Source of the DNA: a virus
Length of the DNA stretch: 58,275 bases
IMG/VR virus record: IMGVR_UViG_3300042691_041303
Location: 1-58,275 of that record
Direction: 5' to 3' (one strand)
A program made the translations under genes and the position numbers. This document shows, in pieces, positions 4,042 through 57,763 of this stretch. Positions within the stretch are counted from its first letter, which is position 1; every line of letters starts with the position of its first letter. The notes below the pieces were generated by a model. It had not been told where the DNA came from, ran no database searches, and saw only the letters and a program-made list of their open reading frames with translations.

Positions 4042-4042
4042 C

Positions 4043-9390: not shown

Positions 9391-9397
9391 TTTTGTA

Positions 9398-10844: not shown

Positions 10845-10882
10845 ATGGTTATATTTAATATGTTTTTAAAATTTGTAAACTT

Positions 10883-11554: not shown

Positions 11555-11555
11555 A

Positions 11556-12311: not shown

Positions 12312-12314
12312 ATA

Positions 12315-14196: not shown

Positions 14197-14199
14197 TTT

Positions 14200-18297: not shown

Positions 18298-19095
18298 TTA
18301 TTTCATATAATTTAAATACATATAATCCTCTGAAATAGGCCAATCTAAAACCCTTTCCAAGTTATCCTTTATAGCATCCATTTTAGAAAAATATAAATCT
18401 TCTGAAATTTCTTTGATATTAAAGTCATCTAATAAAATAATACCGTCTTTATTAAAGAAGTCACCTATTTCAGAGGTACCCCAAAAAATAGGTATAGTAC
18501 CAGTTGCAAAACAATCAGTTATTTTTTCTGTAAAAATATTTGGATAATTATCATTTTCCATCGCTATAGAAAAATAATAATCAATTAGGCCATGTTCTTT
18601 TTTTTGAATGTTTCTAAAACCAGAACCATAATGGTCTACACTATTTTTGTATTTATCTATAATTGTTCTTCTATAAACATGTCCTGGACAAAAAGTCTTA
18701 GAAGAAGCTATCATAGATATTAATTTAGTTTTTTTATGGATTTCACGACCATCAACCCAAGGTACTGCATTAGGTATTAAAAATTTAAACTTTGGTGATA
18801 AATTTAATAACCTAATGTCGTGGGTAAAAATTAATTCAAAATTAGAATTCATAAATTCTACATTTTCTTTTACCCAATCAATAACGTTATTAATGATAGC
18901 TGAAGATTCTGCTATCCAAGCATAATTTTTCTTTGTACTATCAACTTTAGCATCTATAATAGAGTTATCTATATAAACACTTATGGGTGCTGTCATTTCA
19001 TTTTTAACCCATTCAATATATTTAGGTACAGACCAACCTGATGAGGAATATGCGTGTTGAAATCCTCCCCCTATTAAATTAATTTTTTGTTTCAT
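18298..19095 (-). CDS. GT10 fucosyltransferase-like glycosyltransferase
   Basis: A 265-residue protein. Its C-terminal half carries the GT10 (alpha-1,3/4-fucosyltransferase) signature: FSIAMEN (residues 175-181), FTEKITDCFATGTIPIFWG (188-206), and LLDDF soon after. SKTFCPGHVYRRTIIDKY and HYGSGFRN match the earlier donor-site helices. It lacks any signal peptide or membrane anchor, as in bacterial members. GDP-fucose from gmd and fcl is the expected donor. The first 100 residues are divergent, as expected for the acceptor domain. Confidence 0.82.
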   Translation of the reverse strand: MKQKINLIGGGFQHAYSSSGWSVPKYIEWVKNEMTAPISVYIDNSIIDAKVDSTKKNYAWIAESSAIINNVIDWVKENVEFMNSNFELIFTHDIRLLNLSPKFKFLIPNAVPWVDGREIHKKTKLISMIASSKTFCPGHVYRRTIIDKYKNSVDHYGSGFRNIQKKEHGLIDYYFSIAMENDNYPNIFTEKITDCFATGTIPIFWGTSEIGDFFNKDGIILLDDFNIKEISEDLYFSKMDAIKDNLERVLDWPISEDYMYLNYMK

Positions 19096-19708
19096 ATTTT
19101 TTTACATAAAATGCATCACCCCATGTACCGCCATCCCAAGTTGTTTCTACTCTTTCAAAATTATATGATGACAAAAAATCATCTAATTCTTCTATCATAG
19201 GACAATTTTTATAAACTTCATCTCTATTAACTTCTGTCATAATATAATCAATACTTTTTAGATATTCAACAGAACCTTTAAAAACTTCTAATTCATAACC
19301 CTGTACATCGATATTAATAAAATTATATTTTTCTTTATCCCCAATAAAATTGTCTAATTTAGTTATGGGTACGACAACTTTATTATTAAATTTTATGTGT
19401 GGGTATTGTTTTAAATGTATTGATGGTTCTAAAATAGAACTAGATTGCCCTTGATTGGCTGATTCTACAAACATTTCTATTTCACCTATATGATTACCTA
19501 AAGCCGTTTTTACTAAGACAACATTTTTATCTTTTGTATTTTCTTTTAATTTTTCAAAAGTATGAGGCAAAGGTTCAAAAAACATAACGTTTTCAATACC
19601 AACCTTTTCATAGGTTGTTAATTCTTGACCAAAATGTGCTCCGATGTGTAAGACACCTTTTATTTTTAAATTATATTTTTCTTTTAATTTAATTAAATCT
19701 AGTAACAT
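19079..19708 (-). CDS. FkbM-family methyltransferase (second)
   Basis: A 209-residue SAM-dependent methyltransferase with KGVLHIGAHFGQELTTY (motif I), a central MFFEPLPHTFEKLKEN, and FINIDVQGYELEVFKG (FkbM hallmark). The start chosen is the ATG at 19708, which overlaps the upstream stop as TAATG; a TTG at 19729 would add seven residues. It overlaps the GT10 gene by 17 nt. It is different in sequence from the 16502-17203 enzyme, so it may act on another acceptor position. Confidence 0.83.
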   Translation of the reverse strand: MLLDLIKLKEKYNLKIKGVLHIGAHFGQELTTYEKVGIENVMFFEPLPHTFEKLKENTKDKNVVLVKTALGNHIGEIEMFVESANQGQSSSILEPSIHLKQYPHIKFNNKVVVPITKLDNFIGDKEKYNFINIDVQGYELEVFKGSVEYLKSIDYIMTEVNRDEVYKNCPMIEELDDFLSSYNFERVETTWDGGTWGDAFYVKKYETKN

Positions 19709-20484
19709 TAAAAATTTATTTTTACGCAATTATTATTTATATAATCAACCATATTTTTATCACTAGTAACAATTTTATTGTACATTAATTTAGGTTCATT
19801 ACTTATTTTTTGGTATATCATAGGAAAATCCCTTTCAAAAAAATATCTATCTAATTTTTCACCGTATTCATCTTTGATTAATCTTTCAAAAGAAGTTATT
19901 TTTTCTGTTAAAAAATTAAGATTACAATTATCAATAAAATAATTAATTACTTCACCATCGTGTACCCAAAAAGTATAATAGCTGGCTAAATTATCTTTAT
20001 TAGGTTTCCCATATATTATTAATGGTAATGTGGTGTTTAAATAATTTTTTGCTGTAGTACCAATATAGGGTGTGTAAATAGAAATGTTTTCTTTAAACAT
20101 CTTTATTTCTATTTTATCTTTTTGATTCCAAAATACATCAAAAACTTCTTTTCTAAAATTATGTGACCCACTAGTAACACCTTTAGTATGGCCAAACCAA
20201 TACACATCGTATTTTTTATTAGTTTTTTTTAAAAGTCTTAAAGCACTTTGAAATGCTGATACATCACTATCTATTAATAACTCTTTTGGTGTTATTTCAT
20301 ATTTTATGTTTAAAATTTTTGAGTAGTCCTCTAGTGTTTTAATCCATTCGTCACAAGAATCATTTATACCAACGTATATGTCATATTTAGTAAATGATTC
20401 TATGAATTTATCTAAAAACTCTTTACCGATATAAATTTTGTCTTTTGTGGGTATATATGAAGCGAAAACTACACAACCTTTCAT
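19708..20484 (-). CDS. Hypothetical glycan-locus protein, possible glycosyltransferase
   Basis: A 258-residue protein. VFASYIPTKDKIYIGKEFLD, DIYVGINDSCDEW and YDVYWFGHTKGVTSG could belong to a GT-A-type transferase related to rhamnan/teichoic acid synthesis proteins, but no clear DxD is present. FWVHDGEVINYF lies later. I assign it by context between two methyltransferases. It starts within the stop of its upstream neighbour. Confidence 0.55.
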   Translation of the reverse strand: MKGCVVFASYIPTKDKIYIGKEFLDKFIESFTKYDIYVGINDSCDEWIKTLEDYSKILNIKYEITPKELLIDSDVSAFQSALRLLKKTNKKYDVYWFGHTKGVTSGSHNFRKEVFDVFWNQKDKIEIKMFKENISIYTPYIGTTAKNYLNTTLPLIIYGKPNKDNLASYYTFWVHDGEVINYFIDNCNLNFLTEKITSFERLIKDEYGEKLDRYFFERDFPMIYQKISNEPKLMYNKIVTSDKNMVDYINNNCVKINF

Positions 20485-21143
20485 TTTTTATAAATTATAG
20501 CTATTTCAGAAGATCTACCCATTTTTACCTCTAAACCACCAATATTATTTTCTAAATAATTGGATTCATCCTCTGTAATGTATTTAGATTTAATTTTACC
20601 TTCTTTTTGAAAATCATACAACATATCCAATGTTTTTTCATCTCCATTGACATAAGATCCGATGTGACAAGTATGTAAATCTTCTATGACATAGATTCCG
20701 TTTGGTTTTAAATGTTTAAATAAAACAGATATAGTTACTTGGTGTTGTTTCATTGTGTGCCCACCATCATCTATTATGACATCAAAATCAGAACCTATTT
20801 TTTCTATTAAATTATTAAGTTCTTCTTTTGATTCTTGGTTACAAATAAAAGTCTTTATTTTATCATTTTCTATATCAGAAAAATCGTGTAAATCAATACC
20901 ATAAATTTCTGAATTTGGTAGATATTCGTTCCAAGTCCTTAAAGAGGCACCTGGTAATCTACGACCTTCATTCTCTTTTCTTTGTTGTTCAGGTAATGAC
21001 GGTCTATATATACCTATTTCTAAAATTTTTAATTTTTCATTTCTTTTATTTTCAAAAATTTCTTCATAAAAAGAAACGTAATTATGGTCAGATTCCATTT
21101 TGTCTGTACCATAAAATATCATAATTTCATTTAATTTTTTCAT
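20481..21143 (-). CDS. Class I SAM methyltransferase (MycE/cephalosporin-hydroxylase type)
   Basis: A 220-residue protein. LKILEIGIYR is motif I, followed by an insertion rich in Arg, Glu and Pro, then GASLRTWNEYLPNSEIYGID. FDVIIDDGGHTMKQHQVTIS and LKPNGIYVIEDLHT match sugar O-methyltransferases of the MycE kind. The GTG at 21155 is less likely than the ATG at 21143, which forms an ATGA overlap with the GT11 stop. It probably methylates a sugar hydroxyl. Confidence 0.78.
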   Translation of the reverse strand: MKKLNEIMIFYGTDKMESDHNYVSFYEEIFENKRNEKLKILEIGIYRPSLPEQQRKENEGRRLPGASLRTWNEYLPNSEIYGIDLHDFSDIENDKIKTFICNQESKEELNNLIEKIGSDFDVIIDDGGHTMKQHQVTISVLFKHLKPNGIYVIEDLHTCHIGSYVNGDEKTLDMLYDFQKEGKIKSKYITEDESNYLENNIGGLEVKMGRSSEIAIIYKK

Positions 21144-21937
21144 ATTTTTATCCACTGTTTAGGTATTGTATCTTCTTGATCTTGTGGTCCCCCAAGACCA
21201 AACCATAATTTAGGCCCTATGACAACTTTATTTTTATTTTGATTTAAATAAGCACCCCACCAACTAAAACTACTATTTGCTATAATATTATGGTCACAAT
21301 TACTCATTAAAATTAAATCTTCTATTTCATCAAAAAAAGGTGAAATAATACCAATTAAATTATTTTTACACCAAAGTTTATCATCAGATATTATTATTGG
21401 TGTGAAGTGACCTATTTTTTCTTTTATTAAATTTAAAGAATTTTTATAATAATCTAAAGAACATATAGTATGTATATTTGGGAATTTTAAATAATCACCT
21501 CTTCTAACATGTATTGAGACTAATGGTAGATTATTATTCTCTTCTTTTACTTTTTTTAACCAAAGAACAATTTCTTTGTATTTTTTATCCTCTGTTTTTA
21601 ATCCATTAATTATTTTTTCAACAATTTCATTTTTGTTTTCAGTAAAAAATTTTTCTGACTGAAAGAATCCTTGTAATTGTACATTTTTTTTATACGGTAT
21701 TTCTTCAAAACTATGACCAGACTGTGAAAAAATATTGTCAATTATAATATTTTCTGAATGTTTAAATTCTTTAAAAACATTATTCTTATATTTTATTATT
21801 TCATTACCCTGTAAAGGTGTGTGTGAGGTATTAAAATTAAAAACGGGTTCATCACCAAATTTTTTAGCTAAATTATATGTTGCCGCAACTTGAAAAAGTT
21901 GATTACCTAGACCACCAGCAAAATAAACTGTAACCAT
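21140..21937 (-). CDS. GT11 alpha-1,2-fucosyltransferase
   Basis: A 265-residue protein with all GT11 landmarks: GGLGNQLFQ (8-16), HVRRGDY (143-149), and NSSFSWWGAY (221-230). The HxRRxD motif binds GDP-fucose. Together with the GT10 enzyme at 18298 it gives the phage two unrelated fucosyltransferase families. No membrane segment is present. It lies between a GT25 gene and a methyltransferase gene in the same operon. Confidence 0.9.
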   Translation of the reverse strand: MVTVYFAGGLGNQLFQVAATYNLAKKFGDEPVFNFNTSHTPLQGNEIIKYKNNVFKEFKHSENIIIDNIFSQSGHSFEEIPYKKNVQLQGFFQSEKFFTENKNEIVEKIINGLKTEDKKYKEIVLWLKKVKEENNNLPLVSIHVRRGDYLKFPNIHTICSLDYYKNSLNLIKEKIGHFTPIIISDDKLWCKNNLIGIISPFFDEIEDLILMSNCDHNIIANSSFSWWGAYLNQNKNKVVIGPKLWFGLGGPQDQEDTIPKQWIKI

Positions 21938-21938
21938 T

Positions 21939-22595
21939 TTATTTTTTTAAAAAATTATAATCCATATAAGCCCCTTGTATATCAGAATGTCCATCTTTTT
22001 GCCAAGCTAAATGGGGTAAAAAACAATAAGTATTTAAAACTCTATGTAGGTCACCCAAGAAATAATCTGCAGCGACAGAAGGTTTATGTGTAATTGTTAA
22101 ATCTGACATAACTTTATTTATTTTATTTTCTAAATGTTGTATCATTATGTCGTAACTACTTTCTTTAATACCACAAGCGTGTATTGCGTAACTTCTATTT
22201 ATTTTTACTATACCTTCAGTGATAGGTAAATAACCACCAACGTGGTTACCGCCAAAAAACAAATAATCCCAATCGTTAGGTACCCTTTCTATTAAAGATT
22301 CAAATAATTCGTTAACTTTTTCTTTAAAAAAAACATCATCTTCTAAAAGAAGTAATTTTTTTACCTTATTTTCTTTAGCTTTTTTTAAAGCATTTAAATG
22401 ACTATAACTACCAGCTAATTCCGCACTATAAACAGAACCTTGTGGTAAACCCAATTCCTTACCGTCTACTGCTGAAAATCTTTCAACATCCAATCCAATT
22501 TTTTCGAATTGTGGTAAACAATTTTCTTCCCACCTATCAGTTCTTCTATCTAAATTTATACAATAAATTTTATCAAAATATTCATTTATTCCCAT
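21939..22595 (-). CDS. GT25-family glycosyltransferase
   Basis: A 218-residue protein. INLDRRTDRW is at residues 13-22 and the metal-binding LLLLEDDVFF at 81-90, both diagnostic of GT25 (LPS galactosyltransferase-like). SYSHLNALKKAKENKVKK precedes the DD motif as in family members. It probably adds a hexose to the glycan; the donor is unknown. It overlaps the upstream gene by 10 nt. Confidence 0.85.
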   Translation of the reverse strand: MGINEYFDKIYCINLDRRTDRWEENCLPQFEKIGLDVERFSAVDGKELGLPQGSVYSAELAGSYSHLNALKKAKENKVKKLLLLEDDVFFKEKVNELFESLIERVPNDWDYLFFGGNHVGGYLPITEGIVKINRSYAIHACGIKESSYDIMIQHLENKINKVMSDLTITHKPSVAADYFLGDLHRVLNTYCFLPHLAWQKDGHSDIQGAYMDYNFLKK

Positions 22596-23362
22596 GTTTG
22601 AAACTTTTTATCTACTTTTACAATGTTATAAAATTTGTCTGGTGCCCCACCCATTAGAGCTTGTTGTGGATACATCCATTTATCAAAGTAATCAACTATT
22701 TTATTTATATTTCTAAAATTAGGACTAGCTGAAGAGTTTTGTAATTTTCTAAATAAATTTTTTCTTATATAACTCATATGATGCATTTCTATTTCATCAC
22801 GAGTAAATATTTTACATTTACCAGGTTCCATTCTTCTAGTTGGGTCTACTAATACAGGGAATGGATGTCCTATTACATATTCTCTATTTTGTCTTATTTT
22901 ATACAAAAGTGAAACAAAATATTCTTCTTTAGGTTCTAATCTGTATGTTGGTTCTTTATAATAAGTTGTCATTTGACAAGCCGAAGAATCGTAGTCACCT
23001 TCTAACATTATTTTTTTAAGATATTTAAACTCTTCCTCATCATAAAATTCATCAGAATCCATGGCCATATGATGTGTACAACCAGCTCCTTCAGATAAAG
23101 AAAGACCAATATTTCTTTTAGTTATTTCATTAAAATGACCACCTCTATTAATTTTTGGTTTAAACTCAAAAATTTCATCAATTAAATTTTTATTTTTTAA
23201 ATACTCTAAAATTGACACCAAATTTTTATCACATTCGTTCCCAAAATTAGAAATAGTTTGATAAACCACAGATATGTAATCAACGTTATTTCTTATTGAT
23301 TTAATAGAGCTTTCTAATAATTCTTCACCGTCAAAAATATTATATGATACACCTATTTTCAT
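22586..23362 (-). CDS. GT2-like glycosyltransferase
   Basis: A 258-residue protein. MKIGVSYNIFDGEELLESSI resembles the donor-domain start of GT2/GT92-like proteins, and MAMDSDEFYDEEEF is a strong DxDE metal-binding motif. FTRDEIEMHHMSYIRKNLF is a likely acceptor-side block. The substrate is unknown. Its stop overlaps the GT25 start, and its start overlaps the stop of the large GT2 protein. Confidence 0.75.
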   Translation of the reverse strand: MKIGVSYNIFDGEELLESSIKSIRNNVDYISVVYQTISNFGNECDKNLVSILEYLKNKNLIDEIFEFKPKINRGGHFNEITKRNIGLSLSEGAGCTHHMAMDSDEFYDEEEFKYLKKIMLEGDYDSSACQMTTYYKEPTYRLEPKEEYFVSLLYKIRQNREYVIGHPFPVLVDPTRRMEPGKCKIFTRDEIEMHHMSYIRKNLFRKLQNSSASPNFRNINKIVDYFDKWMYPQQALMGGAPDKFYNIVKVDKKFQTWE

Positions 23363-24909
23363 TACACTAAATTTTTTAAAGTTCTTTCAACAATCATTTC
23401 CATATCTTTTTCAGATACATTTTCAAAATGTTTGTAAGTTTTTTTATTTTTTAAGATATAAGGTATTATTCTTTGGGTATAATCCTCAGCTTCATTTTGC
23501 CATTTTTTATCACTCTTGTTTCTTGTTTGTGATTCATAGTGATAACATACAGCATCAGAAACAAAATAATTTTTTAAATTACGGTTTAAACAATCTATGT
23601 TAAGTTGTACATCCTCAAAACATTCTTTATAAGATTCTTCAAACCCGCCAATTAGATCAAATATATCTTTTTTAATTAACATAAAAGCTGCTGTATTACC
23701 AAATACATCTCTTGTTTGTGTTGGGTATGTATAATAGGATTTTAAACCTTTATGGGTTAACATTACTCTACGGTCTTGTCCTAAGTATAAAATAATTCCA
23801 CCGTGTTGTATAGTATTATCCTCAAAATGTAGTCTAGCCCCAATAGTACCCACCATTTTATTTTTAAGGTAAACGTCAACCATTCTACTGATAGCGTCAT
23901 TAACTAATTGAATATCGTTATTACAAAATAATAATAATTCACTATCATTAGGAACATGATTTTTTACAACATCGTTATTTATAGATGCAAAATTATAATA
24001 ATCATATTCTACTAATCTTATTTTTATTTTATCTATGTTATTATTTATCAATTCCTCAATACCTTTCTTTTCCTCTAAAGAAGAACCTGTGTCTGCAATT
24101 ATAATCTCTAAATTATCATAAGAATCTTTTTCAACTATAGAATTAACACAATTAGATAATAAATCTACATTACCTTTAGTTGGTATAATAACCGATATTT
24201 TAGGTGTTCTTTTTAGTTTTTTAATCGGATTTTTTTCGTAGATTAAATCAACTTTTAGATTATATGGTAAATTTTCTTTGTAATTTTCTGAAAATTGTTT
24301 TCTATTGTCTTCCCACTCTTGATTTGTCATACCAATAGATTTATGTGTTACTGTAACATCAAAAATAACACCCACTTTAACACCACTTAAATGATTATTA
24401 AAACTAAAATCTATATCGTAAAAATGAAAACCTTTAATATTTTCATTAAATTCTTTTTTAATTTTTTCTTTATTGATTACAAAAAATAAACCGTCTACAG
24501 ATATTGTTTGAATAATTTCTTTACCAAAATTATTGGAGTATTTATTTTCCCAAGTTTTACCATCGTTTTGATGTTTAACAATACCAACCATTTTAGCTCT
24601 ATCTTGCCACCACATACCACTTTCAGGTAAATTAGTGGTACCAGCAACACCTAAAATACCATAATCACTCTGATTAAAATGATTTAATATTTTTTTACCC
24701 CAATTATTAGGTAATATTAAATCATCGTGGATAAAAGCTATTATATTATTTTTAGATTGTTTTAAACCTAAATTATAAGCTTCAGTTAAAGAATATTTAC
24801 CTTGATTTATTATTTGTATAATTTCAAAATCTTTAACACCAATAGTTTGTGTTATGTGTTTTTTATATTCAGGGTTATCTTCTCTAGTTGAGAATACTAT
24901 AGTAATCAT
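23362..24909 (-). CDS. Two-domain GT2 glycosyltransferase
   Basis: A 515-residue protein with two GT-A units. The first (about 1-210) has TREDNPEYKKHITQTIG, NIIAFIHDDLILPNNWG with its acidic pair, and GLFFVINKEKI. The second (about 235-490) has PKISVIIPTKGNVDLLSNCV, IIIADTGSS, ELLLFCNNDIQLVND and GGFEESYKECFEDVQL. Two-domain GT2 proteins often add two residues in turn or alternate sugars. It is the first and largest transferase of the main block. The coding sequence ends 0-1 nt from the next gene. Confidence 0.85.
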   Translation of the reverse strand: MITIVFSTREDNPEYKKHITQTIGVKDFEIIQIINQGKYSLTEAYNLGLKQSKNNIIAFIHDDLILPNNWGKKILNHFNQSDYGILGVAGTTNLPESGMWWQDRAKMVGIVKHQNDGKTWENKYSNNFGKEIIQTISVDGLFFVINKEKIKKEFNENIKGFHFYDIDFSFNNHLSGVKVGVIFDVTVTHKSIGMTNQEWEDNRKQFSENYKENLPYNLKVDLIYEKNPIKKLKRTPKISVIIPTKGNVDLLSNCVNSIVEKDSYDNLEIIIADTGSSLEEKKGIEELINNNIDKIKIRLVEYDYYNFASINNDVVKNHVPNDSELLLFCNNDIQLVNDAISRMVDVYLKNKMVGTIGARLHFEDNTIQHGGIILYLGQDRRVMLTHKGLKSYYTYPTQTRDVFGNTAAFMLIKKDIFDLIGGFEESYKECFEDVQLNIDCLNRNLKNYFVSDAVCYHYESQTRNKSDKKWQNEAEDYTQRIIPYILKNKKTYKHFENVSEKDMEMIVERTLKNLV

Positions 24910-24913
24910 AGAT

Positions 24914-25405
24914 TTATTTTTCTATTTCAATAATGTTTATTGGTTCTTCACAGTAAACAGATAAATGACACGAAGCTTTAATAGCCTCTTTAACTGAATT
25001 ACCTAAATAAAGTGCGGCTAAAGCGAAGTCCATTCCAGCACCAATTGCTGTATAATCAGTTACTTCTTTACACCAAAAACCTTCCATTACAAATGCCTTA
25101 CCTTCAAAAACAATAATATATTGATTGCTTAATTTAGGTTCTTCAGTTTTATTTCTATACCAATCTTGGAATTCGGACATAAATTCAACTAAAGCATCTA
25201 CTGATGCTTCTCTAGGTTTTCTAGTTTTAGAATAAATTAAAAATAATCCACCTTCTTGTGCATCACCACAATCACCTATGACCATTCCGTTAACTTCATT
25301 AAGTTTAGCTAACTTATCTTTTTCTTGTGTCCATCCAGAGACTAAAATACTATCAGCTCCGATAGTTATTTTTTTATTTGTTACTTTTACTGCTACTACT
25401 GACAT
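24914..25405 (-). CDS. HslV-like Ntn hydrolase with N-terminal serine
   Basis: A 163-residue protein that follows HslV/proteasome beta subunits along its length. MSVVAVKVTNKKITIGADS aligns with the HslV start, placing Ser2 at the position of the mature nucleophile, Asp18 at Asp17 and Lys34 at Lys33 of HslV. The C-terminal AIGAGMDFALAALYLG and SVKEAIKASCHLSVYCEE match the HslV AIGSGG helix and the closing strand; the Ser of that loop is Ala here. Bacterial CodW uses an N-terminal Ser, so activity is plausible. No HslU-like unfoldase is visible in the window. It may borrow the host's or act alone. Confidence 0.75.
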   Translation of the reverse strand: MSVVAVKVTNKKITIGADSILVSGWTQEKDKLAKLNEVNGMVIGDCGDAQEGGLFLIYSKTRKPREASVDALVEFMSEFQDWYRNKTEEPKLSNQYIIVFEGKAFVMEGFWCKEVTDYTAIGAGMDFALAALYLGNSVKEAIKASCHLSVYCEEPINIIEIEK

Positions 25406-25407
25406 TT

Positions 25408-25728
25408 TTAAGCTGTTGTTGTTATATTATAAATTCCGTTATTTAAAGTTATATTATCAGTACCCGATGTTGTATACCAAACTTGTGGGTATGTTCGTGG
25501 GTACGGATTAGTATATGGATTAGTTTCAAATGGTACAAAAGGGTTTATTTGTGGGTTGGGGTTAACAGTTATTGGGTTATCCCAACCCTTAATTTTATTT
25601 ACTTTTAAAGTAAATTCTCTCCATAAACCATTAGGTAGTAAACTATTTAACTGTTCATAAAAATCATGAACATTAACATCCTCTTCGATGGTAATAGTTT
25701 TATTAATAGTATCTAACTGTATTTTCAT
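25408..25728 (-). CDS. Hypothetical protein with Pro/Asn/Tyr-rich tail
   Basis: A 106-residue protein. The first 55 residues look like a small globular unit (two strands and a helix, NVHDFYEQLNSLLPNGLW). Residues 56-85 are rich in Pro, Asn and Tyr (NPFVPFETNPYTNPYPR), and the end is Thr/Asn-rich. It could be a linker-bearing adaptor or a minor virion protein. No family recognised. It overlaps the dUTPase stop as TAATG. Confidence 0.55.
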   Translation of the reverse strand: MKIQLDTINKTITIEEDVNVHDFYEQLNSLLPNGLWREFTLKVNKIKGWDNPITVNPNPQINPFVPFETNPYTNPYPRTYPQVWYTTSGTDNITLNNGIYNITTTA

Positions 25729-26309
25729 TATTTAGTACCCGTTGATCCAAATCCACCTTCACCTCTTTCGGATTGGCTTATTTCTTTAACTTCTATTAAA
25801 TCACCGTAATCTGAACTAACTCTTGGTGAAACAACCCCTTGAGCTATTCTTTCTCCTTTTTCCCAAGTAAATTCTTCATTACTTAAATTTATTAAAAGAA
25901 CTTTAATTTCACCACGATAACCAGTGTCAACAGTTCCTGGTGAATTTAATACTGTTATACCATTTTTATATGCTAAACCACTTCTTGGTCTAATTTGTAA
26001 TTCATACCCATCAGGTAATTCAAAGTATAAACCAGTACTAACAAGTTTTCTTTCTAATGGTTTTAATGTGCCATCTTCATTAGACCTTAAATCAAAACCA
26101 GAATCACCTATTTTTTCATATAAAGGATTTTTATTTTCTGACTTATTGATAAATTTTATTTTTATTTTATCATTTTTTTCTTTTTTAAAATAAGTTACAC
26201 TATTCATCAATTCTAATGCCTGTTTTATTTCTTTTTTTTGTTCATTAGGTAAAGCATCTAAACTTAACAAATACTCTAACTCTTTTATTTTTTCGCTAAT
26301 TTCTCCCAT
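25728..26309 (-). CDS. dut: dUTPase with N-terminal helical extension
   Basis: A 193-residue trimeric-type dUTP pyrophosphatase. All five motifs are present: DSGFDLR (69-75), RPRSGLA (107-113), SPGTVDTGYRGE (123-134), KGERIAQGV (151-159) and RGEGGFGSTG (182-191). It hydrolyses dUTP to dUMP, keeping uracil out of phage DNA. An extra N-terminal 45 residues form a charged helix pair (ISEKIKELEYLLSLDAL, then EQKKEIKQALELM) not found in standard dUTPases (about 150 residues); it may mediate a protein contact. Coupled to the exonuclease gene through TAATG. Confidence 0.93.
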   Translation of the reverse strand: MGEISEKIKELEYLLSLDALPNEQKKEIKQALELMNSVTYFKKEKNDKIKIKFINKSENKNPLYEKIGDSGFDLRSNEDGTLKPLERKLVSTGLYFELPDGYELQIRPRSGLAYKNGITVLNSPGTVDTGYRGEIKVLLINLSNEEFTWEKGERIAQGVVSPRVSSDYGDLIEVKEISQSERGEGGFGSTGTK

Positions 26310-27031
26310 TATTTAAGATTATTTAATTTATTAATAATATCAACAAGAGCTTTTACATCTCTTTCACAATATTCTTTAATTTCTTCATGATTACCCTCCC
26401 AATAATTAGTGGTAACATTATCCCCCTTAACATCACCATTTTTAGGTGACTCAATATTTAAAACAGAACAGATTAAATCCAAAGAACCCAAAGACCAATT
26501 ATTACCAAATTGCCAAATTTCTTTAGTATCCAAAACTCTAAGGTCCCACGGTTTGGTATCGTGTGCCGGAAAAAGCTTGGGTGGTTTTAATCCATTAATA
26601 AAATATCTTTTACCTAAAAATGGGATATCAAAAATTTTAATACTTTGACCACATAAATCAAAACCAAGAGGTTCAATTTTATCAAAAATTTTCTTAGTTT
26701 CTGTTAAAATTTGTATTTCGTCTTCACCATAAAAAGATTCGTATCTAACCTCACCATTTTTTGTTACAAATGCCATAGATACACAAGCAACTTTACCAAA
26801 TTCAGGGAAAAAAGCTGCTGTTTGTCTATAAACTTCTTTATTTACATTTTTTTGATTAAAGTTTTTACTCAACCCTTGGTCTAACTTACTTTCATCTGTA
26901 ACTTTTTTTCTAAAAGTATCATAATAAGATTCCCACATTTTTAGTTTATCTTCAGGCATTTCGTATAAATCTTTATACTGACTTACCGTCTCAATATCAA
27001 AAAATAGTAATTTATCTACTTTAAATTGCAT
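26309..27031 (-). CDS. Stand-alone PolB-type 3'-5' exonuclease
   Basis: A 240-residue DnaQ-fold exonuclease of the kind related to the DNA polymerase B proofreading domain. FDIET (residues 11-15) is ExoI, GQSIKIFDIPFLGKR (about 128-142) is ExoII, and YCERDVKALVDI (221-232) is ExoIII. ATG at 27031 is preferred over the TTG at 27043. It overlaps the upstream glycosyltransferase by 11 nt. The phage polymerase at 30856 has its own exonuclease domain, so this enzyme probably acts in repair or recombination or degrades host DNA or RNA. Confidence 0.82.
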   Translation of the reverse strand: MQFKVDKLLFFDIETVSQYKDLYEMPEDKLKMWESYYDTFRKKVTDESKLDQGLSKNFNQKNVNKEVYRQTAAFFPEFGKVACVSMAFVTKNGEVRYESFYGEDEIQILTETKKIFDKIEPLGFDLCGQSIKIFDIPFLGKRYFINGLKPPKLFPAHDTKPWDLRVLDTKEIWQFGNNWSLGSLDLICSVLNIESPKNGDVKGDNVTTNYWEGNHEEIKEYCERDVKALVDIINKLNNLK

Positions 27032-28340
27032 TTGTTTCTTCAATTAATTGTTCTAATTCTTTTCTATTATCACTAACCATTTTTTTATACAAAGAGGCTC
27101 TTGATTTTGTTACCGTATCAATGTGATATTTTTCTTTAACAGTATTATATAAATTATTTTGTAACAAATCAACTAATTCAGGGTTTTCAATTAATTTTTT
27201 CATTGCTTTATACCAATCTTTGTGATTTCTATTACCATCAATTAATATAGCGTTACCATTCTCATTTATTTTACCACCCCTCTCAAATATATTAACACAA
27301 TCTATTTTATAAGGCCCAAAATCTTGTGCAATTAAAGCTTTTTTATGGAAACCAGCTTCAATAACCTTTAGTTGGGATTTGACTTTATTAAAAACGTGCT
27401 CAACTAATGGTGCCATAGATACATCAAATGAATTATAATTCATAGCAAAAGTAGTAATTGGTTTTGTCCAAACTCTACGATATGTTTGGTCAATAATTTT
27501 TAGATTATCCTCTAAATCTCTATCATATTTTAATAAAAGATCTTTGTATTCAGAATTAACCACTTCTAAATCATTGGTAAACATTTGTTCGTATTTGTTC
27601 CAAACACTTTCTTCTGGTTTTATTTTTCTTGTTCTTTGTTGTCCCGTATTTTTATCAATCTCAGTAATATTTCCTCTAATATCAAAACCACATAAAACAA
27701 ACTGTGATTCTTCTTTATATTCTCTTAAAAATTGTAAAACATTTGGAGCCATCAATCTTAAATCGTGAAAATGTGAAGAACCACCTAACCAACCAAATCT
27801 AAGTTTTTTATCGGTTTCTTCTTTTTTTGGTGTGAATTGTTTTTCGGAAGGGTCAATAGCATTAGGTAATACTATTACATTTTTATTAAATTTAGAAATT
27901 TCGTTAGCAAACAAAGGTGTCGTTGTTGTTACAAAATCAACCCTTTTTAAATTTTCTTTAATTTTAACATCTAATTGTTCTCTGGTTATTAGGAAATATG
28001 CCGGATGTTCTTTAGTTGGTGCCCAATAGTCATCCAAATCCATCACTGTTATTATACCTAATGATTTTAATTTATCTAAAATTTTAAAAGATTCTTCTAA
28101 ATAAACTTGTTGTACTGTATTTTCTTTTTTAGCCGGTAAACCTCTGTGAAAATGAATTATGTCATATTTTTTTAAAAACTCATCATCACTCCAATCAAAA
28201 TCTATTGTACCAGCAGTTATTATATCTACATGAAATTCATCACTATATAATTCCTGTAATTTCATGTGTGGTTCTACTGAACGAAATTTAGAAACACCAG
28301 TTCTATCTGAAGGTAGAACCAAAACTTTAATTTTACTCAT
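27021..28340 (-). CDS. GT-B-type glycosyltransferase
   Basis: A 439-residue protein. Its N-terminus VLVLPSDRTGVSKFRSVEPH and DIIHFHRGLPAKK are the first Rossmann domain of GT-B enzymes. VTTTTPLFANEISKFNKNV, VLPNAIDPSE and FGWLGGSSHFHDL mark the hinge and second domain. KVIEAGFHKKALIAQDFGPY stands at the donor-binding E-x7-E position. No membrane segment is present. It is the first gene of the long minus-strand operon after the terminator at 28389-28417. Confidence 0.82.
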   Translation of the reverse strand: MSKIKVLVLPSDRTGVSKFRSVEPHMKLQELYSDEFHVDIITAGTIDFDWSDDEFLKKYDIIHFHRGLPAKKENTVQQVYLEESFKILDKLKSLGIITVMDLDDYWAPTKEHPAYFLITREQLDVKIKENLKRVDFVTTTTPLFANEISKFNKNVIVLPNAIDPSEKQFTPKKEETDKKLRFGWLGGSSHFHDLRLMAPNVLQFLREYKEESQFVLCGFDIRGNITEIDKNTGQQRTRKIKPEESVWNKYEQMFTNDLEVVNSEYKDLLLKYDRDLEDNLKIIDQTYRRVWTKPITTFAMNYNSFDVSMAPLVEHVFNKVKSQLKVIEAGFHKKALIAQDFGPYKIDCVNIFERGGKINENGNAILIDGNRNHKDWYKAMKKLIENPELVDLLQNNLYNTVKEKYHIDTVTKSRASLYKKMVSDNRKELEQLIEETNAI

Positions 28341-29090: not shown

Positions 29091-29471
29091 TTAAAATTTT
29101 GCTTGTTTGTAAATTCTTGTCATAGTTCTATCACCACTTTGGTTATATCTAGGTATGTTACCTATACGATTAGATATTGGACTTGTAAAAGGTATTTCAT
29201 TTAAAGGATCCCAATCCATTATTTTATCTAATAATAAAGTTTTCCAACCTAATTCAGTTTCAGTATCTCCTGCGTATTGATAAACTCTAACTATTTTATT
29301 ATCTTTTTTTGAGTTACCTAAAACGTAAGATTCAATGTACCTAGTACTGTAACTACCATCGTCTTCTTTATAACGAATTTTTACTCGTTCATGTTTTACA
29401 ATAGCATCACCGACTTCGGCATCTGAAGCTGCCTCTAAAATAAGTGTATTTAAAATAGAGTAAAGCCTCAT
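29091..29471 (-). CDS. WYL-like small protein with possible capsid-targeting leader
   Basis: A 126-residue protein. The start MRLYSILNTLILE is followed by AASD, which fits the T4 prohead protease rule (I/L-x-E, then Ala). Residues 22-100 resemble a WYL-type small beta-barrel: AIVKHERVKIRYKEDDGSY, IESYVLGNSKKDNKIVRVYQ, and LGWKTLLLDKIMDWDPL. WYL domains bind nucleotides or act as regulators of host defence systems. A packaged, injected WYL protein would be notable, but both parts of the call are inference from weak similarity. It lies 1-2 nt from its neighbours. Confidence 0.5.
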   Translation of the reverse strand: MRLYSILNTLILEAASDAEVGDAIVKHERVKIRYKEDDGSYSTRYIESYVLGNSKKDNKIVRVYQYAGDTETELGWKTLLLDKIMDWDPLNEIPFTSPISNRIGNIPRYNQSGDRTMTRIYKQAKF

Positions 29472-52841: not shown

Positions 52842-52850
52842 ATATTTATT
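52842..52850 (+). promoter_or_regulatory. Candidate late promoter motif ATATTTATT
   Basis: ATATTTATT ends 15 nt before the ATG at 52866, directly after the terminator. Confidence 0.55.
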
Positions 52851-52865: not shown

Positions 52866-53570
52866 ATGTCAAAAATCATAACAAAAAAACAATTAAATCT
52901 AGTAATAGAGTCTACGATTAAAGAAGCGACAGACTATATGAACGAAGCTGAAATTAAATTAACAAAACAACATATGGATGACTTACATAAAAACGGTCAT
53001 TGTATGTGTGATGATAAATGTTTAATTTACTATGAAGATATTAAAGGTGATGAGAAAAAAATGTCTGAACTTTTAACTAAATTATCTTCAGAAAAAATGG
53101 ATTGTGTTGTTATTTCTAAACAACAAATGGATATGTTACACAAAGATGGTAAATGTGAATGTGACAACAATCTAACACTTTCTTATGAGGATTCAATGAA
53201 TGAAGGTGATTACATGAAAGAAGGTGAAATGTGTTCTGAGTGTGGTTCTGGAACTATGATGGAAGGTACTTGTAATGAGTGTGGTTATTCTATGAATATG
53301 GGTGAGGACGAAATTAAAAACCCTGGTAAATATATGGGTGGTGAAAGACAGAAAGCCGGTATTGATGATGATGGTGATGGTGTTCCTAATAAGGCCGATA
53401 AAGACCCTAAAGATGGTAATGTCACAGAAATTAAAGTAGGTGATAAAACTTATAAAGTTGTAGACGAATCAATTAATGAATTAACAGAATCTTTAATGAA
53501 AACAACTAATAATAAATTATTAAAAGAAGAGAAAGATTTCTTTAATAAAATCATAAATTATAAAAAATAA
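52866..53570 (+). CDS. Leader-bearing protein with duplicated CxC motif, zinc ribbon and Ca-type repeat
   Basis: A 234-residue modular protein. Leader MSKIITKKQLNLVIESTIKE is followed by ATDY (I-K-E then Ala, the best (I/L)-x-E match of the plus-strand set). Two copies of a 26-residue unit follow: KQHMDDLHKNGHCMCDD (from 34) and KQQMDMLHKDGKCECDN (from 85). A zinc ribbon has Cys at 123, 126, 136 and 139. DDDGDGVPNKADKDPKDGN (167-185) is a thrombospondin-type-3-like calcium-binding repeat. A protein with metal sites and a packaging-like leader may be an internal head protein; function unknown. Confidence 0.68.
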   Translation: MSKIITKKQLNLVIESTIKEATDYMNEAEIKLTKQHMDDLHKNGHCMCDDKCLIYYEDIKGDEKKMSELLTKLSSEKMDCVVISKQQMDMLHKDGKCECDNNLTLSYEDSMNEGDYMKEGEMCSECGSGTMMEGTCNECGYSMNMGEDEIKNPGKYMGGERQKAGIDDDGDGVPNKADKDPKDGNVTEIKVGDKTYKVVDESINELTESLMKTTNNKLLKEEKDFFNKIINYKK

Positions 53571-53574
53571 AAAC

Positions 53575-54273
53575 ATGAAAACAAGATATAAAGTAACAAA
53601 ACAACAATTAGAAATGGTCGTAGAATCATTCGTTACAGAAAATTCAAATAGAAGAACTAGGAGAATGAATGAAGCCAAATTAAATGAAATTTTTGGTCTT
53701 GGTAAGAAATTTGAAGAATTAATGAAACAAGCTAAAGAAAGAGCTAATAAATATTTAGATACATTGTCTGATGAAGAAAAAGAAGAACTTGCTAATTCTT
53801 TAATTGAAAAATCACCAAAAGCCGCTAGAGAAGTACAAAACGCTTCTTCTATGGATTCTTTATTGCCTTCAGCCGAAGAAGCGGCTGAAATAGCTGATGA
53901 AACGGGTTTAACAACAGAAAGTCTAAAATTAAATGAAGTTGGTAGTGGTAAATTTAGACAAATATTTGCTAGACTTGTTGCACTAGTTGGAGCTCCTTTA
54001 TCCGCAGCATTAGCTATAGCTGGTATTGCTGGAGATGCCGCGGGTTGGGCAGATTCACCTTGGTCAGTAGTAGCTCACGATTTTATTAATATGTTTGGTC
54101 AGGCTAGAGGCTTTGTGGTTATATTAGGGTTTCTTTTATTTCTAGTTTGTGTAATGTGGGGTAGTTTTAACTTTAATGTCGCTAAACAAAGAGCGGCAGA
54201 AAAAGAAAGAGCGGCAGAAAGAGAAAGAAAAAGAATGGAAAAAATGGCTAACCAAGGTGGTAAACAAATGTAA
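53575..54273 (+). CDS. Leader-bearing membrane protein
   Basis: A 232-residue protein. Start KVTKQQLEMVVESFVTE fits the leader family with Val in place of Ile. The middle is charged and helical (40-90); two membrane segments are at about 132-153 and 178-197 (VVILGFLLFLVCVMWG); the tail is rich in Ala, Glu and Arg (KQRAAEKERAAERERKR). It could act at the host membrane after injection, or in infection exclusion; both are guesses. It lies 4 nt after the 52866 gene and is followed by a terminator. Confidence 0.65.
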   Translation: MKTRYKVTKQQLEMVVESFVTENSNRRTRRMNEAKLNEIFGLGKKFEELMKQAKERANKYLDTLSDEEKEELANSLIEKSPKAAREVQNASSMDSLLPSAEEAAEIADETGLTTESLKLNEVGSGKFRQIFARLVALVGAPLSAALAIAGIAGDAAGWADSPWSVVAHDFINMFGQARGFVVILGFLLFLVCVMWGSFNFNVAKQRAAEKERAAERERKRMEKMANQGGKQM

Positions 54274-54298
54274 TTATAAAAATATAATCAAATATTAT

Positions 54299-54329
54299 AA
54301 AATGGTATGAGTTTAACTCATACCATTTT
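54299..54329. terminator. Bidirectional terminator overlapping a stop codon
   Basis: Arms AAAATGGTATGAG (54299-54311) and complement (54317-54329), loop of five. The stop codon of the minus gene at 54313 lies in the loop, so its last codons are in the stem. Confidence 0.9.
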
Positions 54330-54639
54330 TATTTTGTAGATATTTAATTAATTCATTAATAATAAAATTAATTTCATCATTTTCTTCAGTCATAGTTTTT
54401 TTATTTAAAATATAAGGACTAATAATAACCCAAGATATAAAATGTGTGAATAAAAACAACAAAATAGAAATACCAATTAAATAAGATATCAAAAAACCTA
54501 TTGATAGGGATAATAATAAATAAAACACATCTGTGTTTACATTCTTAATAACTCTAAGAAATAAAATAATAGTTTTTATTTTAAACCTTGACTTAGATTT
54601 ATAAGATTCAATTTCTTGTAATAATTCTTTTTTTTCCAT
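54313..54639 (-). CDS. Small two-helix membrane protein
   Basis: A 108-residue protein with charged ends and a hydrophobic block at about 38-77 (VFYLLLSLSIGFLISYLIG, then ISILLFLFTHFISWVII), enough for two membrane passes. It is second in a two-gene unit with the similar-sized membrane protein at 54652. Could be a holin-like or superinfection protein; there is no diagnostic sequence. Confidence 0.6.
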   Translation of the reverse strand: MEKKELLQEIESYKSKSRFKIKTIILFLRVIKNVNTDVFYLLLSLSIGFLISYLIGISILLFLFTHFISWVIISPYILNKKTMTEENDEINFIINELIKYLQNKNGMS

Positions 54640-54651
54640 TTTTATATTAAT

Positions 54652-55032
54652 TTAATATTTTTCAAACCAAAGTTTTTTTATTTCTAAATTTTCAATTTTA
54701 TGTTTGTTCTGTTTAGTCAAAATATTTTTTTCTTTATATTTAGAAACAAGAAACCAATATTGCCTCATAACATCTTTTCTTTTACCATAATTAGAACTAG
54801 CTAAAAACAAAGAAATAAAAGAAACGATACCAAAAAATATGGTTACAGTTGTAAAGATAGTAAAAAAATAACATATAATTAAACAAATCAACTGTAAATT
54901 TAAATGTCTGATATTATTATGTATTTTATTTGTCAGGTAATTCATATAATGAACTTTTTCTAAAATATCAGAAATCATATTTTCTTCGGTAAGTTTCTCC
55001 TCTTCATCAAATAAAAAATCTAAATCTGTCAT
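54652..55032 (-). CDS. Small two-helix membrane protein under a host-type promoter
   Basis: A 126-residue protein with an acidic start (DLDFLFDEEEKLTEEN), a helical region, then two membrane segments at about 46-80 (LICLIICYFFTIFTTVTIFF, GIVSFISLFL) and a basic tail. Its promoter is host-type (55053-55060), so early expression and a role in host takeover or exclusion are plausible. It is the first of two membrane genes. Confidence 0.6.
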   Translation of the reverse strand: MTDLDFLFDEEEKLTEENMISDILEKVHYMNYLTNKIHNNIRHLNLQLICLIICYFFTIFTTVTIFFGIVSFISLFLASSNYGKRKDVMRQYWFLVSKYKEKNILTKQNKHKIENLEIKKLWFEKY

Positions 55033-55052
55033 ATCTTATAAATATTATAATA

Positions 55053-55060
55053 CAAATATA
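55053..55060 (-). promoter_or_regulatory. Host-type -7 box TATATTTG
   Basis: Minus-strand TATATTTG lies 20 nt before the ATG at 55032 and matches TAnnTTTG exactly. No TTG is found at the -33 position. A late-type motif copy lies between (55037-55045), but is too close to the ATG to be useful. Confidence 0.45.
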
Positions 55061-55102
55061 ACATATTTTTACTTAAATAAAAAAATTTAATCACATTTTT
55101 TA

Positions 55103-55111
55103 ATATTTATA
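55103..55111 (+). promoter_or_regulatory. Candidate late promoter motif ATATTTATA
   Basis: ATATTTATA ends 15 nt before the ATG at 55127 and would drive the three leader-bearing genes to 57047. Confidence 0.58.
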
Positions 55112-55126
55112 TATAAAAAGATTTTT

Positions 55127-56029
55127 ATGAATATCAGAAAAAAAATCATATCAGAATTAAATAGGGTTAAAATTGGTAAAATATTAAAAGAAAGAGAACT
55201 TAGAATATATACTCTTGATTGGGATGATAATATTTTAGAAATGCCAACCACCATTAAAATGGATAAAAAAGTTGGTAACTCTTGGGAGCCTGTTGAGGTT
55301 TCTACTGAAGAGTTTGCTAAAGTTAGAACAAGTCCTGATTATAGGCCAAGGAATAATGATTTTAAACAAGCTTTTATAGATTTTACGTTACCCGATACTT
55401 TTTTAAGAGACACAGAAAAGGCTATTAAACTAAATAAAACATCACCTAGTTTTAATAAATTTAAAGAAAATTTAATCTATGCAAACCCATTTTCTATTAT
55501 TACAGCTAGAGGTCACGACCCGCAAATAATTAAAAAGGGTGTTAAATTATTTATCGATATTGTTTTAACGCCACAAGAAAAAATGGGAATGGTTAAAAAC
55601 ATTAAAAATGTTTTTGAGTATGAAAAAATATATAGTCAAAGTTTTTTAGATAAGATGGAAGATTTATCCATGGAACAAATTATAGACCTTTATCTAGATG
55701 AAAAAGGTGATTATTACCCTGTTTCTTCTGCTGAATTTGGTAAAAGAATAGGTTTAGATGTTACTGGTGGAGCTTCAAATCCTGAACATTCTAAAAAAAT
55801 GGCTCTAGCTAATTTTATTGAAAAAGTTTTTTACAACGTTGGTAAATTAATCGAAAGTGGGCAATATACAAAAGTTTCTTTAGGTTTTTCTGATGACGAT
55901 GTTAGAAACGTTAGAGCAATGATAGAATTTATTGAAGACGAATTATCCAAGATGTACCCCGAAATTCACTTTGTTATTTATGACACCTCTGAAGGTGGAA
56001 AAAGAAAACTAGTTATTGAAAAAGGATGA
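55127..56029 (+). CDS. HAD-superfamily hydrolase with packaging-like leader
   Basis: A 300-residue protein. The leader (1-21) ends GKILKE. HAD motif I is IYTLDWDDNIL with both Asp residues kept (31 and 33). Motif II is in PFSIITARGHDPQI (about 122-135), and motif IV SLGFSDDDVRNVRAMIEF (251-268). Large insertions between II and IV act as caps. Probably a phosphatase or nucleotidase; substrate unknown. In contrast to the HAD-like protein at 10883 it keeps the nucleophile. Its stop overlaps the next ATG. If the leader is a capsid-targeting peptide, the enzyme would be injected with the genome. Confidence 0.72.
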   Translation: MNIRKKIISELNRVKIGKILKERELRIYTLDWDDNILEMPTTIKMDKKVGNSWEPVEVSTEEFAKVRTSPDYRPRNNDFKQAFIDFTLPDTFLRDTEKAIKLNKTSPSFNKFKENLIYANPFSIITARGHDPQIIKKGVKLFIDIVLTPQEKMGMVKNIKNVFEYEKIYSQSFLDKMEDLSMEQIIDLYLDEKGDYYPVSSAEFGKRIGLDVTGGASNPEHSKKMALANFIEKVFYNVGKLIESGQYTKVSLGFSDDDVRNVRAMIEFIEDELSKMYPEIHFVIYDTSEGGKRKLVIEKG

Positions 56030-56529
56030 GATCATTAATTAAAAAAATATTAAAAGAAGATTTTGAATGGGCTAGTCAAGTGGACCCACTAAAGTCTTTT
56101 GAAGATTATTTTTATGGTAATTACCGAATGAATACTTCACACATAAAAGATAGTTTTTCACCAGGTAGATGGATTAGACGTGATATTAATTGGTGGAAAA
56201 ATTGGATTCACGAAGTTGAAATGTCTCATGCAACATTTCTAGAAGAAATAGAGGAGTTAAATGATATGGTTCATGATTTGGTTAACCCTGTAGACGGTTC
56301 AAAAAAATATTATCAATTATCTGAAGATGTTTATAGTTTCCTAAAACCAAGTCCAGCTTTAAATGGAAAAAGTATATTTCAAGATTTAGCTTTAACAATA
56401 TTTGATGCTTATACAGAATTAGGTCCTTTTGCAGAAGATAACAATTTAACCATTTTAGAAACTTTAAATGTTTTTAAACAATGGTTAAACAAAATGGAAT
56501 CTGAGGATAGAACTTTACATAGATCATAA
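56026..56529 (+). CDS. Leader-bearing hypothetical protein 1
   Basis: A 167-residue protein starting MRSLIKKILKEDFEWA, nearly identical at the protein level to the start of the next gene. The remainder is helical and Trp/Glu-rich (RRDINWWKNWIHEVEMSHAT, LEEIEELNDMVHDLVNP). No family recognised. It starts as ATGA within the HAD gene stop and ends as TAATG. Confidence 0.68.
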   Translation: MRSLIKKILKEDFEWASQVDPLKSFEDYFYGNYRMNTSHIKDSFSPGRWIRRDINWWKNWIHEVEMSHATFLEEIEELNDMVHDLVNPVDGSKKYYQLSEDVYSFLKPSPALNGKSIFQDLALTIFDAYTELGPFAEDNNLTILETLNVFKQWLNKMESEDRTLHRS

Positions 56530-57047
56530 TGAAAAATTTAATTAAAAAAATATTAAAAGAGGATTTTGACTGGATAAATGATATCCCTTCATTTATTGAA
56601 GTTACTGAACCAGTTTCCCAAAATAACCCTAAAGATATGTTTAGATTAAATTGGACCAATTCACATTATACTGGTGATTATGATGTTTGGGCTGATGAAT
56701 GGTATAATTTTAAAAACGATTCTGATGGTATAACTAAATTAACAAGATTTGTTAAAATATTGCAAAACGGGGTAAATCCAAGAAGTGATGATTTTGATTT
56801 TAATTTATTATCTGATTTATATTTTAAAGGTGGGCATGATTATATAGTAACTAAAGAAATGGAAAACATACTTTCTAATTTGTCTGATTATGATGAAGAA
56901 GAAAAAAAAGAAAAATTAGTTGAAATGTTAGAAGAAAATTTATCTGACCTTGGTGTTTATCAATATAACTCATCTTTACAGAGATGGCGGGTTACTTACT
57001 TTGATGAAAACGGAATAGAGTTTAATACAAAAATTAATATAGTATAA
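56529..57047 (+). CDS. Leader-bearing hypothetical protein 2
   Basis: A 172-residue protein starting MKNLIKKILKEDFDWIND. The rest does not align with the 56026 protein (GITKLTRFVKILQNGVNPRS, EEKKEKLVEMLEENLSDLG); only the leader is shared, including its DNA (27 of 30 bases around 56041-56070 and 56540-56569). It is closed by a terminator at 57046-57075. Function unknown. Confidence 0.68.
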   Translation: MKNLIKKILKEDFDWINDIPSFIEVTEPVSQNNPKDMFRLNWTNSHYTGDYDVWADEWYNFKNDSDGITKLTRFVKILQNGVNPRSDDFDFNLLSDLYFKGGHDYIVTKEMENILSNLSDYDEEEKKEKLVEMLEENLSDLGVYQYNSSLQRWRVTYFDENGIEFNTKINIV

Positions 57048-57075
57048 AAAAAGGGACCCGAAAGTCCCTTTTTTT
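57046..57075. terminator. Bidirectional terminator between convergent genes
   Basis: Arms AAAAAAAGGGAC (57046-57057) and complement (57064-57075) with a 6-nt loop, flanked by the stop codons at 57047 and 57074. Confidence 0.9.
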
Positions 57076-57763
57076 ATTTTTTATTTTGTTTACCAATAAT
57101 CTCATCAATAATACCATATGATAAAGCTTCTTCAGAACTTAACCATAAATCACGTTGTGCATCTTTTTCAACTTGTGTGGGTTTTTTACCACAATAATCA
57201 CCCAACAATCTAAACAATTCTTTGTTAATTTTTTCCCATTCATTCATTGTAATTCTAGCATCTTGAATATTACCCATTGCTCCACCACTAGATTGATGTA
57301 GCATCGTTCTTGAGTGAGGTAAAGAAGCTCTCATCCCCTTTGTTCCTGCCCCTAATAAAACAGAACCCATTGAAGCTGCCATACCTGTGTTGATGGTTTG
57401 GATATTATTTGGGATATAATTCATAACATCTACCATAGATAAACCAGCTTTAACTGAACCACCAGGTGAGTCGATATGCATTGTAATTGTTTTCTTTGGG
57501 TCTTGTTGTGACAAAAACAAAAGTTGTGCTTGAACAATAATAGCCATCCTATCGTCAACTGGTCCTGCACACCATATAATTCTATCCATCATCAATCTAT
57601 CAAAAACTGACATTACAGCAACATTAAGTTGCCTTTCTTCGATAATTGTTGGTGTTACTGAGTTAGTCACCATAGGTGTAATTGATTGAAATCCTTGATA
57701 ATCGTGTAGTGTATTAGAATTAACACCTAGATGATTAACAGCATAATTATTAAAATCTTTCAT
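57074..57763 (-). CDS. clpP: ClpP-like serine protease
   Basis: A 229-residue ClpP. Catalytic triad: Ser131 in GMAASMGSVLL, His156 in RTMLHQSSGG and Asp205 in AQRDLWLSSEEALSYGIID. MHIDSPGGSVKAGLSMVDVM is the usual substrate and head-domain region. The N-terminal 50 residues are longer than in bacterial ClpP (about 195-205), possibly a propeptide. It would form a tetradecamer with a host or phage ClpX/ClpA ATPase, or process phage structural proteins. Phages often use ClpP-fold enzymes as head proteases, but sequence and gene context favour a true ClpP here. Confidence 0.9.
   Translation of the reverse strand: MKDFNNYAVNHLGVNSNTLHDYQGFQSITPMVTNSVTPTIIEERQLNVAVMSVFDRLMMDRIIWCAGPVDDRMAIIVQAQLLFLSQQDPKKTITMHIDSPGGSVKAGLSMVDVMNYIPNNIQTINTGMAASMGSVLLGAGTKGMRASLPHSRTMLHQSSGGAMGNIQDARITMNEWEKINKELFRLLGDYCGKKPTQVEKDAQRDLWLSSEEALSYGIIDEIIGKQNKK

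Follow-up and report, generated by a model that had tools for sequence, protein, structure and literature searches.

Seven proteins encoded in a 58,275-base fragment of the virus record IMGVR_UViG_3300042691_041303 (29% GC; hereafter ‘the window’, meaning the whole of this stretch) begin with a short leader that ends in a hydrophobic residue, any residue and glutamate. These leaders are best read, with a probability that we put at about 0.78, as the propeptides of a capsid-targeting system like that of phage T4, in which several interchangeable leader types are spread over many proteins. We favor this reading because the leaders appear to form a tag that is modular and exchangeable and whose (I/L)-x-Glu end is conserved, and because their lineage has a T4-type capsid protein carrying an INE|A site (the bar marks the junction), a gp22-like scaffold and a gp21-type prohead protease of family S77. 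In large phages of the Bacteroidota type, the tag probably marks which of many uncharacterized proteins ride in the virus particle.

Late in infection, the amphipathic leader helix would bind the scaffold core while the prohead assembles. The gp21-type S77 protease would then cut after (I/L/V/F)-x-Glu, and the mature cargo would stay in the head, from which it could be ejected into the next host together with the DNA. Several unrelated helix families would serve as equivalent tags and be exchanged among cargoes. We infer these steps (core binding, cleavage, head loading and ejection of the leader proteins) from several lines of sequence comparison: the leaders themselves, their repetition, their swapping, the conserved hydrophobic-x-Glu (hxE) junction and its counterpart in the capsid protein, the protease of relatives and a shared upstream box.

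Leaders, their swapping and their repetition

A sequence-only reading of this DNA had reported seven leaders of the (I/L)-x-Glu type, and all seven N-termini are present as described. On the plus strand, the open reading frame (ORF) 2047–2463 begins with MKKIVRLTESDLENLVKKVIKE (2047–2112; 22 residues, then EEA), ORF 52866–53570 with MSKIITKKQLNLVIESTIKE (52866–52925; 20 residues, then ATD), ORF 53575–54273 with MKTRYKVTKQQLEMVVESFVTE (53575–53640; 22 residues, then NSN), the HAD gene at 55127 with MNIRKKIISELNRVKIGKILKE (55127–55192; 22 residues, then REL), ORF 56026–56529 with MRSLIKKILKE (56026–56058; 11 residues, then DFEW) and ORF 56529–57047 with MKNLIKKILKE (56529–56561; 11 residues, then DFDW). 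On the minus strand, the WYL-like ORF 29091–29471 begins with MRLYSILNTLILE (29433–29471; 13 residues, then AAS). We refer to each gene by its start. With 11–22 residues, the leaders have the length of short propeptides (10–19 residues in T4). They end in (L/I)-x-Glu, with Ile or Leu at P3, in 2047, 52866, 55127, 56026, 56529 and 29471; 53575 ends in FVTE, with Val at P3. Leaders closely similar to that of 2047 head many unrelated proteins in related phages, and orthologues of 29471 have the junctions LIVE|V, VLLE|V, LIVE|A and LILE|V. A protein scan found no relatives of 53575 or 56026; at syntenic loci, 56026 has orthologues and 53575 an equivalent. In the AlphaFold model of 55127, residues 3–22 form an isolated, loose helix (pLDDT 51–57) that ends at the junction, and the confident domain starts at residue 24.

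Leader swapping provides what we regard as the strongest evidence, the decisive question being whether the junction is kept when the leader changes. In four protein families (HAD, DHH, RGSY and RYMFFSN), the (L/I)-x-Glu end is conserved across swapped leaders. Among HAD homologues of 55127, drawn from 61 viral loci and four huge-phage genomes, 22 of 25 distinct leaders carry hydrophobic-x-Glu, versus 9.9 in shuffles; when the test was repeated with ten residues at the last position, Glu alone was enriched. At two syntenic loci (L314 and L315), the HAD leader is wholly replaced (by MKKYIISEGQYSNIQKFLLE| and MKKYILSEKQYTKLQKYLIE|), and the neighbors 56026 and 56529 keep recognizable leaders. The DHH enzyme occurs with five unrelated leaders, every one of which ends in hxE right before the common body. 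The two remaining families are small proteins encoded near the capsid gene. All 13 distinct leaders of the RGSY family end in (I/L)xE (2.5 in shuffles), and the residue after Glu is A, G, V or S in 15 of 15 sequences, mostly as E|A; in the RYMFFSN family, 14 of 16 leaders have the junction (6.8 in shuffles). Junctions were also compared across every homologous pair whose N-termini do not align, with a positive result (16 versus 5.2) that is blurred by alignment ends. DHH-family proteins are found at L276:11192–12778, L288:16449–18692, L335, L342 and L089, and the G007 protein also has a SET domain; the DHH gene adjoins the DNA polymerase gene in G019 and lies near it in G020.

The repetition of the leaders can also be counted. 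Bare hydrophobic-x-Glu is no more frequent at the N-termini of the window than at other positions, so the pattern on which the sequence-only reading relied proves nothing by itself. A strict amphipathic pattern (two hydrophobic, two polar and two hydrophobic residues, any residue and Glu, with the Glu no later than residue 30) gives a different picture when its expectation is taken from internal positions: six matches in the window versus 0.63 expected (p = 5e-5), a partly post hoc figure, as the pattern had been modeled on these very leaders. Eight related contigs (1362 proteins), which make a mostly independent test, contain 83 matches versus 8.8 expected (p ~ 1e-50). Within single genomes, many unrelated proteins begin with almost the same 22 residues, MK(K/R)IIRLTESDLxRIV(K/R)RVI(K/N)E; these leaders are 67–91% identical as protein, and the residues that follow them 3–12%. 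Recent DNA duplication was considered as the source of such leaders and rejected, their synonymous codons being only somewhat more alike (0.65–0.67) than codon usage predicts (0.49–0.57); this modest likeness points mainly to selection on the peptide. When five leader types are counted by regular expressions, which take in some chance matches, G006 (362 proteins) and G008 (311) each have 39 leader proteins and G007 (224) has 21. In the 635-kb phage LR745206, a T4-like N-terminal pattern is found on 197 of 894 proteins (22%) versus 6.5% at internal methionines, an excess of ~140. One G006 protein (95498) has a tandem pair of leaders at its N-terminus (MNLQQTIRKILREEFKSHNNLQETVRKVLREKLRQEKVVLNE). 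Leader-like motifs (e.g. ESLIKRIVRE and DSLVSKIILE) also occur near the C-termini of G008 236152 (aa 135–152), G006 180498 (aa 135–150) and G009 79441 (aa 330–345), and recall the C-terminal processing of T4 Alt.

Head proteins and the late-promoter-like box

In relatives of the window, T4-type gp23 capsid proteins carry INE|A at the expected N-terminal position in 87 of 89 matches. A gp21-type prohead protease, for which the sequence-only reading had proposed a search, is absent from the window and present in its relatives: S77 matches lie above the Pfam cut-off in 12 of 12 large contigs with the related capsid gene. One such protease aligns with the solved structure of T4 gp21 (5jbl) at E = 4.5e-13 and keeps the segments ELNHP and SRGxGSL. 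The 5jbl sequence has ELNAP at the position of ELNHP, presumably because its catalytic His was mutated. Four huge phages that encode the HAD protein (635–735 kb) have gp23 matches and, beside these, weaker S77 matches below the Pfam cut-off. Between 150000 and 170000 of LR756508 (L142), more than 10 small leader genes of the type MKxxEQKLRxIIKEEIKxxxNE lie in tandem around the S77 gene. The cultured Flavobacterium phage immuto likewise has repeated leaders, including the MENFDLKKFLVEN... group, and a capsid site QIVSE|A.

The window’s own lineage can be placed through two fragments that share its gene order, G019 (95 kb) and G020 (94 kb). G020 has a T4-type gp23 capsid gene at 3212–5020 with the N-terminal motif ASVLINE|TTDTAGG, and the lineage of the window therefore has such a gene. 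IMG/VR contains related capsid genes in abundance. A head module of the same kind, made up of terminase, portal, prohead protease and capsid gene, is known from Bacteroidota phages of fresh water with genomes of up to 331 kb (PMC9723584), and the window would belong to that group.

A link with the presumed scaffold is seen within the window itself. A 35-residue segment of ORF 52866 (IKNPGKYMGGERQKAGIDDDGDGVPNKADKDPKDG; 53313–53417, plus strand) is shared with a presumed capsid scaffold protein, whose gene immediately precedes the capsid gene in L317 and L320–L322. Presumed gp22-like scaffolds of G005, G006, G008 and L144–L171 have a conserved helix, EIxxLVKESLxEQ, at residues ~35–48 that resembles the leaders. 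Its leader score is among roughly the top 100–150 of 345,000 internal windows, which amounts to a chance of ~0.15 per protein, and the idea that leader and scaffold helix form a common docking helix is only suggestive.

Transcription signals connect the leader genes with virion genes. The late-promoter-like box ATATTTAT lies on the plus strand at 2021–2028, 18 nt before ORF 2047; at 52842–52849, 16 nt before ORF 52866; and at 55103–55110, 16 nt before ORF 55127. The sequence-only reading placed all leader genes behind candidate late promoters; this is correct for each of these three transcription units, and not for 53575, 56026, 56529 and 29471, which lack their own box and seem to lie inside operons. 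The box occurs within 70 nt upstream of 81 of 138 leader genes (59%) versus 221 of 1287 other genes (17%; odds ratio 6.9, p = 2e-24). In G008, it also precedes scaffold, protease, portal-like, terminase-like and tail genes. The shared box thus suggests that leader genes are expressed late, alongside virion genes.

Cargoes and competing explanations

The leaders head proteins of diverse kinds. The cargo ORF 52866–53570 (plus strand) encodes a zinc-ribbon-like protein with an Asp-rich repeat; ORF 53575–54273 (plus strand), which is operon-internal and starts 4 nt after it, a protein with a hydrophobic segment. The HAD-type hydrolase domain (55196–56029, plus strand) was said to have intact motifs, and indeed all four, DWDDN, ITARGH, K223 and GFSDDD, are conserved in 26 sequences. 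This protein has no Pfam match, and a fold search returned no confident match, the best being a HAD domain at a weak E = 0.027. The WYL likeness of ORF 29091–29471 is weak, its Pfam E of 0.02 falling below the cut-off. Domains among the leader proteins of relatives include DHH, SET, PAP2, lysozyme, VanY and peptidoglycan-binding; a primase match (G007 186268) was set aside as a chance hit of the pattern. In LR745206, where the HAD protein begins MIKKFNQFLE|NNN, the leader set includes a SMODS-associated NUDIX protein, an RNA ligase, a poly(A)-polymerase head, a 2H phosphoesterase, methyltransferases and an Acb1-like protein; ~30% of this set are expected to be chance matches, and single entries need care. 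At L106:8260–9573 (LR745206 448257), a T4-like leader (MKLKKYKQFIKES) precedes a 2H-phosphoesterase domain resembling anti-CBASS Acb1 (below the cut-off) and an exonuclease domain; the homologue of the Acb1-like protein in LR756508 is leaderless.

The window also encodes a contractile-tail sheath (49978), a DNA polymerase (30856, minus strand), a helicase (38503, minus strand), PhoH and a ClpP-like protease (57074–57763, minus strand; Pfam CLP_protease, E = 1e-59). The ClpP-like gene lies in a matching gene block in G019 and G020, and is found in LR745206 at 75119. A block of sugar-nucleotide and glycosyltransferase-like genes (8578–28340, minus strand) is flanked by baseplate-like and replication genes; G005 and G020 have it too, all of this being an assessment by eye of the N-termini.

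Several findings weigh against a capsid-targeting system. Some HAD orthologues have no hxE leader, namely the G006 and LR756501 proteins and the one from LR756504, in which the domain comes first. The proteins 56026 and 56529 are alike beyond the Glu (LIKKILKE and DF(D/E)W are shared between 56026–56100 and 56529–56603, with 63% identity over 19 residues), a similarity that a simple cut would not explain. Neither an S77 protease nor a capsid gene was found in the window; among its closest fragments there is likewise no S77 match, and a capsid gene in G020 only. Some cargoes resemble peptidoglycan hydrolases, which have no obvious role inside a head, and the window leaders differ in sequence from the T4 capsid-targeting sequence (CTS) MKTYQEFIAE. 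Orthologues of 56026 and 56529 have residue insertions exactly between the Glu and the DF(D/E)W motif. What can be kept of the capsid-targeting code proposed by the sequence-only reading is a modular, swappable tag with a conserved (I/L)-x-Glu end in a lineage with T4-type head proteins; its bare pattern is unenriched in the window, and some orthologues have no leader.

Of the competing explanations, the most serious, though unlikely, is that the leaders are real prohead propeptides on proteins that are mainly parts of the core or scaffold (like T4 gp67 and gp68), which shape the head and are partly lost, and not on delivered enzymes. The segment that protein 52866 shares with presumed scaffold proteins would fit, as would the many small, acidic, uncharacterized cargoes, several of them encoded beside the protease and capsid genes. 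Leader proteins are far too numerous for a scaffold, however, and they include recognizable enzymes with conserved catalytic motifs (HAD) as well as DHH, NUDIX, RNA ligase, nucleotidyltransferase and Acb1-like proteins. Less probable still, the leaders could be a sorting or docking tag for a target other than the head, for instance a membrane site, a compartment built by the phage or a partner protein; one candidate partner would be the ClpP-like protease at 57074, whose gene lies within the same block in the window and in relatives. That some cargoes are wall hydrolases would suit such a tag, and head loading is deduced, not observed; a tag of this kind would explain neither the fixation of Glu, and of no other residue, at the junction, nor the agreement of E|small-residue junctions with the site in the capsid protein, nor the late box that leader genes have in common with structural genes. 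Chance is the last candidate, since charged helices at N-termini would be ordinary in a genome that is AT-rich and has much Lys, Ile and Glu. It would account for the unenriched bare pattern in the window, but is very improbable, being already contradicted by near-identical leaders on unrelated bodies, by the enrichment of 83 versus 8.8 and by swapped leaders that keep the junction.

If the leaders are capsid-targeting propeptides, the principle that covers four proteins in T4 would here apply to a large share of the genome (39 of 311 proteins in G008; an excess of ~140 of 894 in the 635-kb phage). Most genes of huge phages lack a known function, and if the leader is a head address, the N-terminus alone would predict which proteins are particle-borne and first to act; orthologues with and without a leader are natural tests of this. 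Protein delivery by phage heads would then also gain new packaging tags. We give even odds to a broader proposition, that in huge phages of the Bacteroidota type, several unrelated helices with a common (I/L)-x-Glu end make up a general and exchangeable address code, by which dozens to more than 100 proteins, including counter-defense and RNA-repair enzymes, are loaded into the head as a first-minute toolkit that travels with the DNA.

Comparison with known systems

We found no papers describing these leaders in the open-access literature. The principle of capsid targeting is already known from T4, where internal protein (IP) propeptides of 10–19 residues direct proteins to the core, L/I-x-E precedes the site of cleavage by gp21, and ten IPIII residues are enough (PMC9026906). 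In phiKZ-like phages (phiKZ and SPN3US), a distant relative of gp21 cuts head proteins after a motif ending in Glu, and proteins are ejected (PMC5694885, PMC9026906). In phiKZ the motif is S/A-x-E, and in SPN3US several propeptides are more than 100 residues long; the leaders described here end in (I/L)-x-E, are 8–25 residues long and, with I, L, V or F at P3, are not of the phiKZ type.

The T4 record has the N-termini MKTYQEFIAE|A in IPII and IPIII, MAKINELLRE|S in gp24 and MLKEQLIAE|A in gp22. The last two resemble short window leaders such as MKNLIKKILKE|D; gp24 and gp22 are structural proteins, whereas the window leaders head a family of exchangeable cargoes. Like the T4 CTSs (IPI, IPII, IPIII and Alt, cut by gp21), these leaders are short, helix-like N-terminal stretches with an (I/L)-x-Glu end on unrelated cargoes, and relatives in the lineage encode, like T4, a gp21-type S77 protease and a gp23-type capsid protein; late-type expression signals are a further likeness. 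Leader forms similar to those of T4, MIKKFNQFLE and MKYLKxFNE, occur in LR745206. Unlike T4, there are at least five leader types, most without sequence similarity to MKTYQEFIAE, and they are swapped between orthologues. In place of the four proteins of T4, each genome has dozens to more than 100 candidates, known here from their sequences alone.

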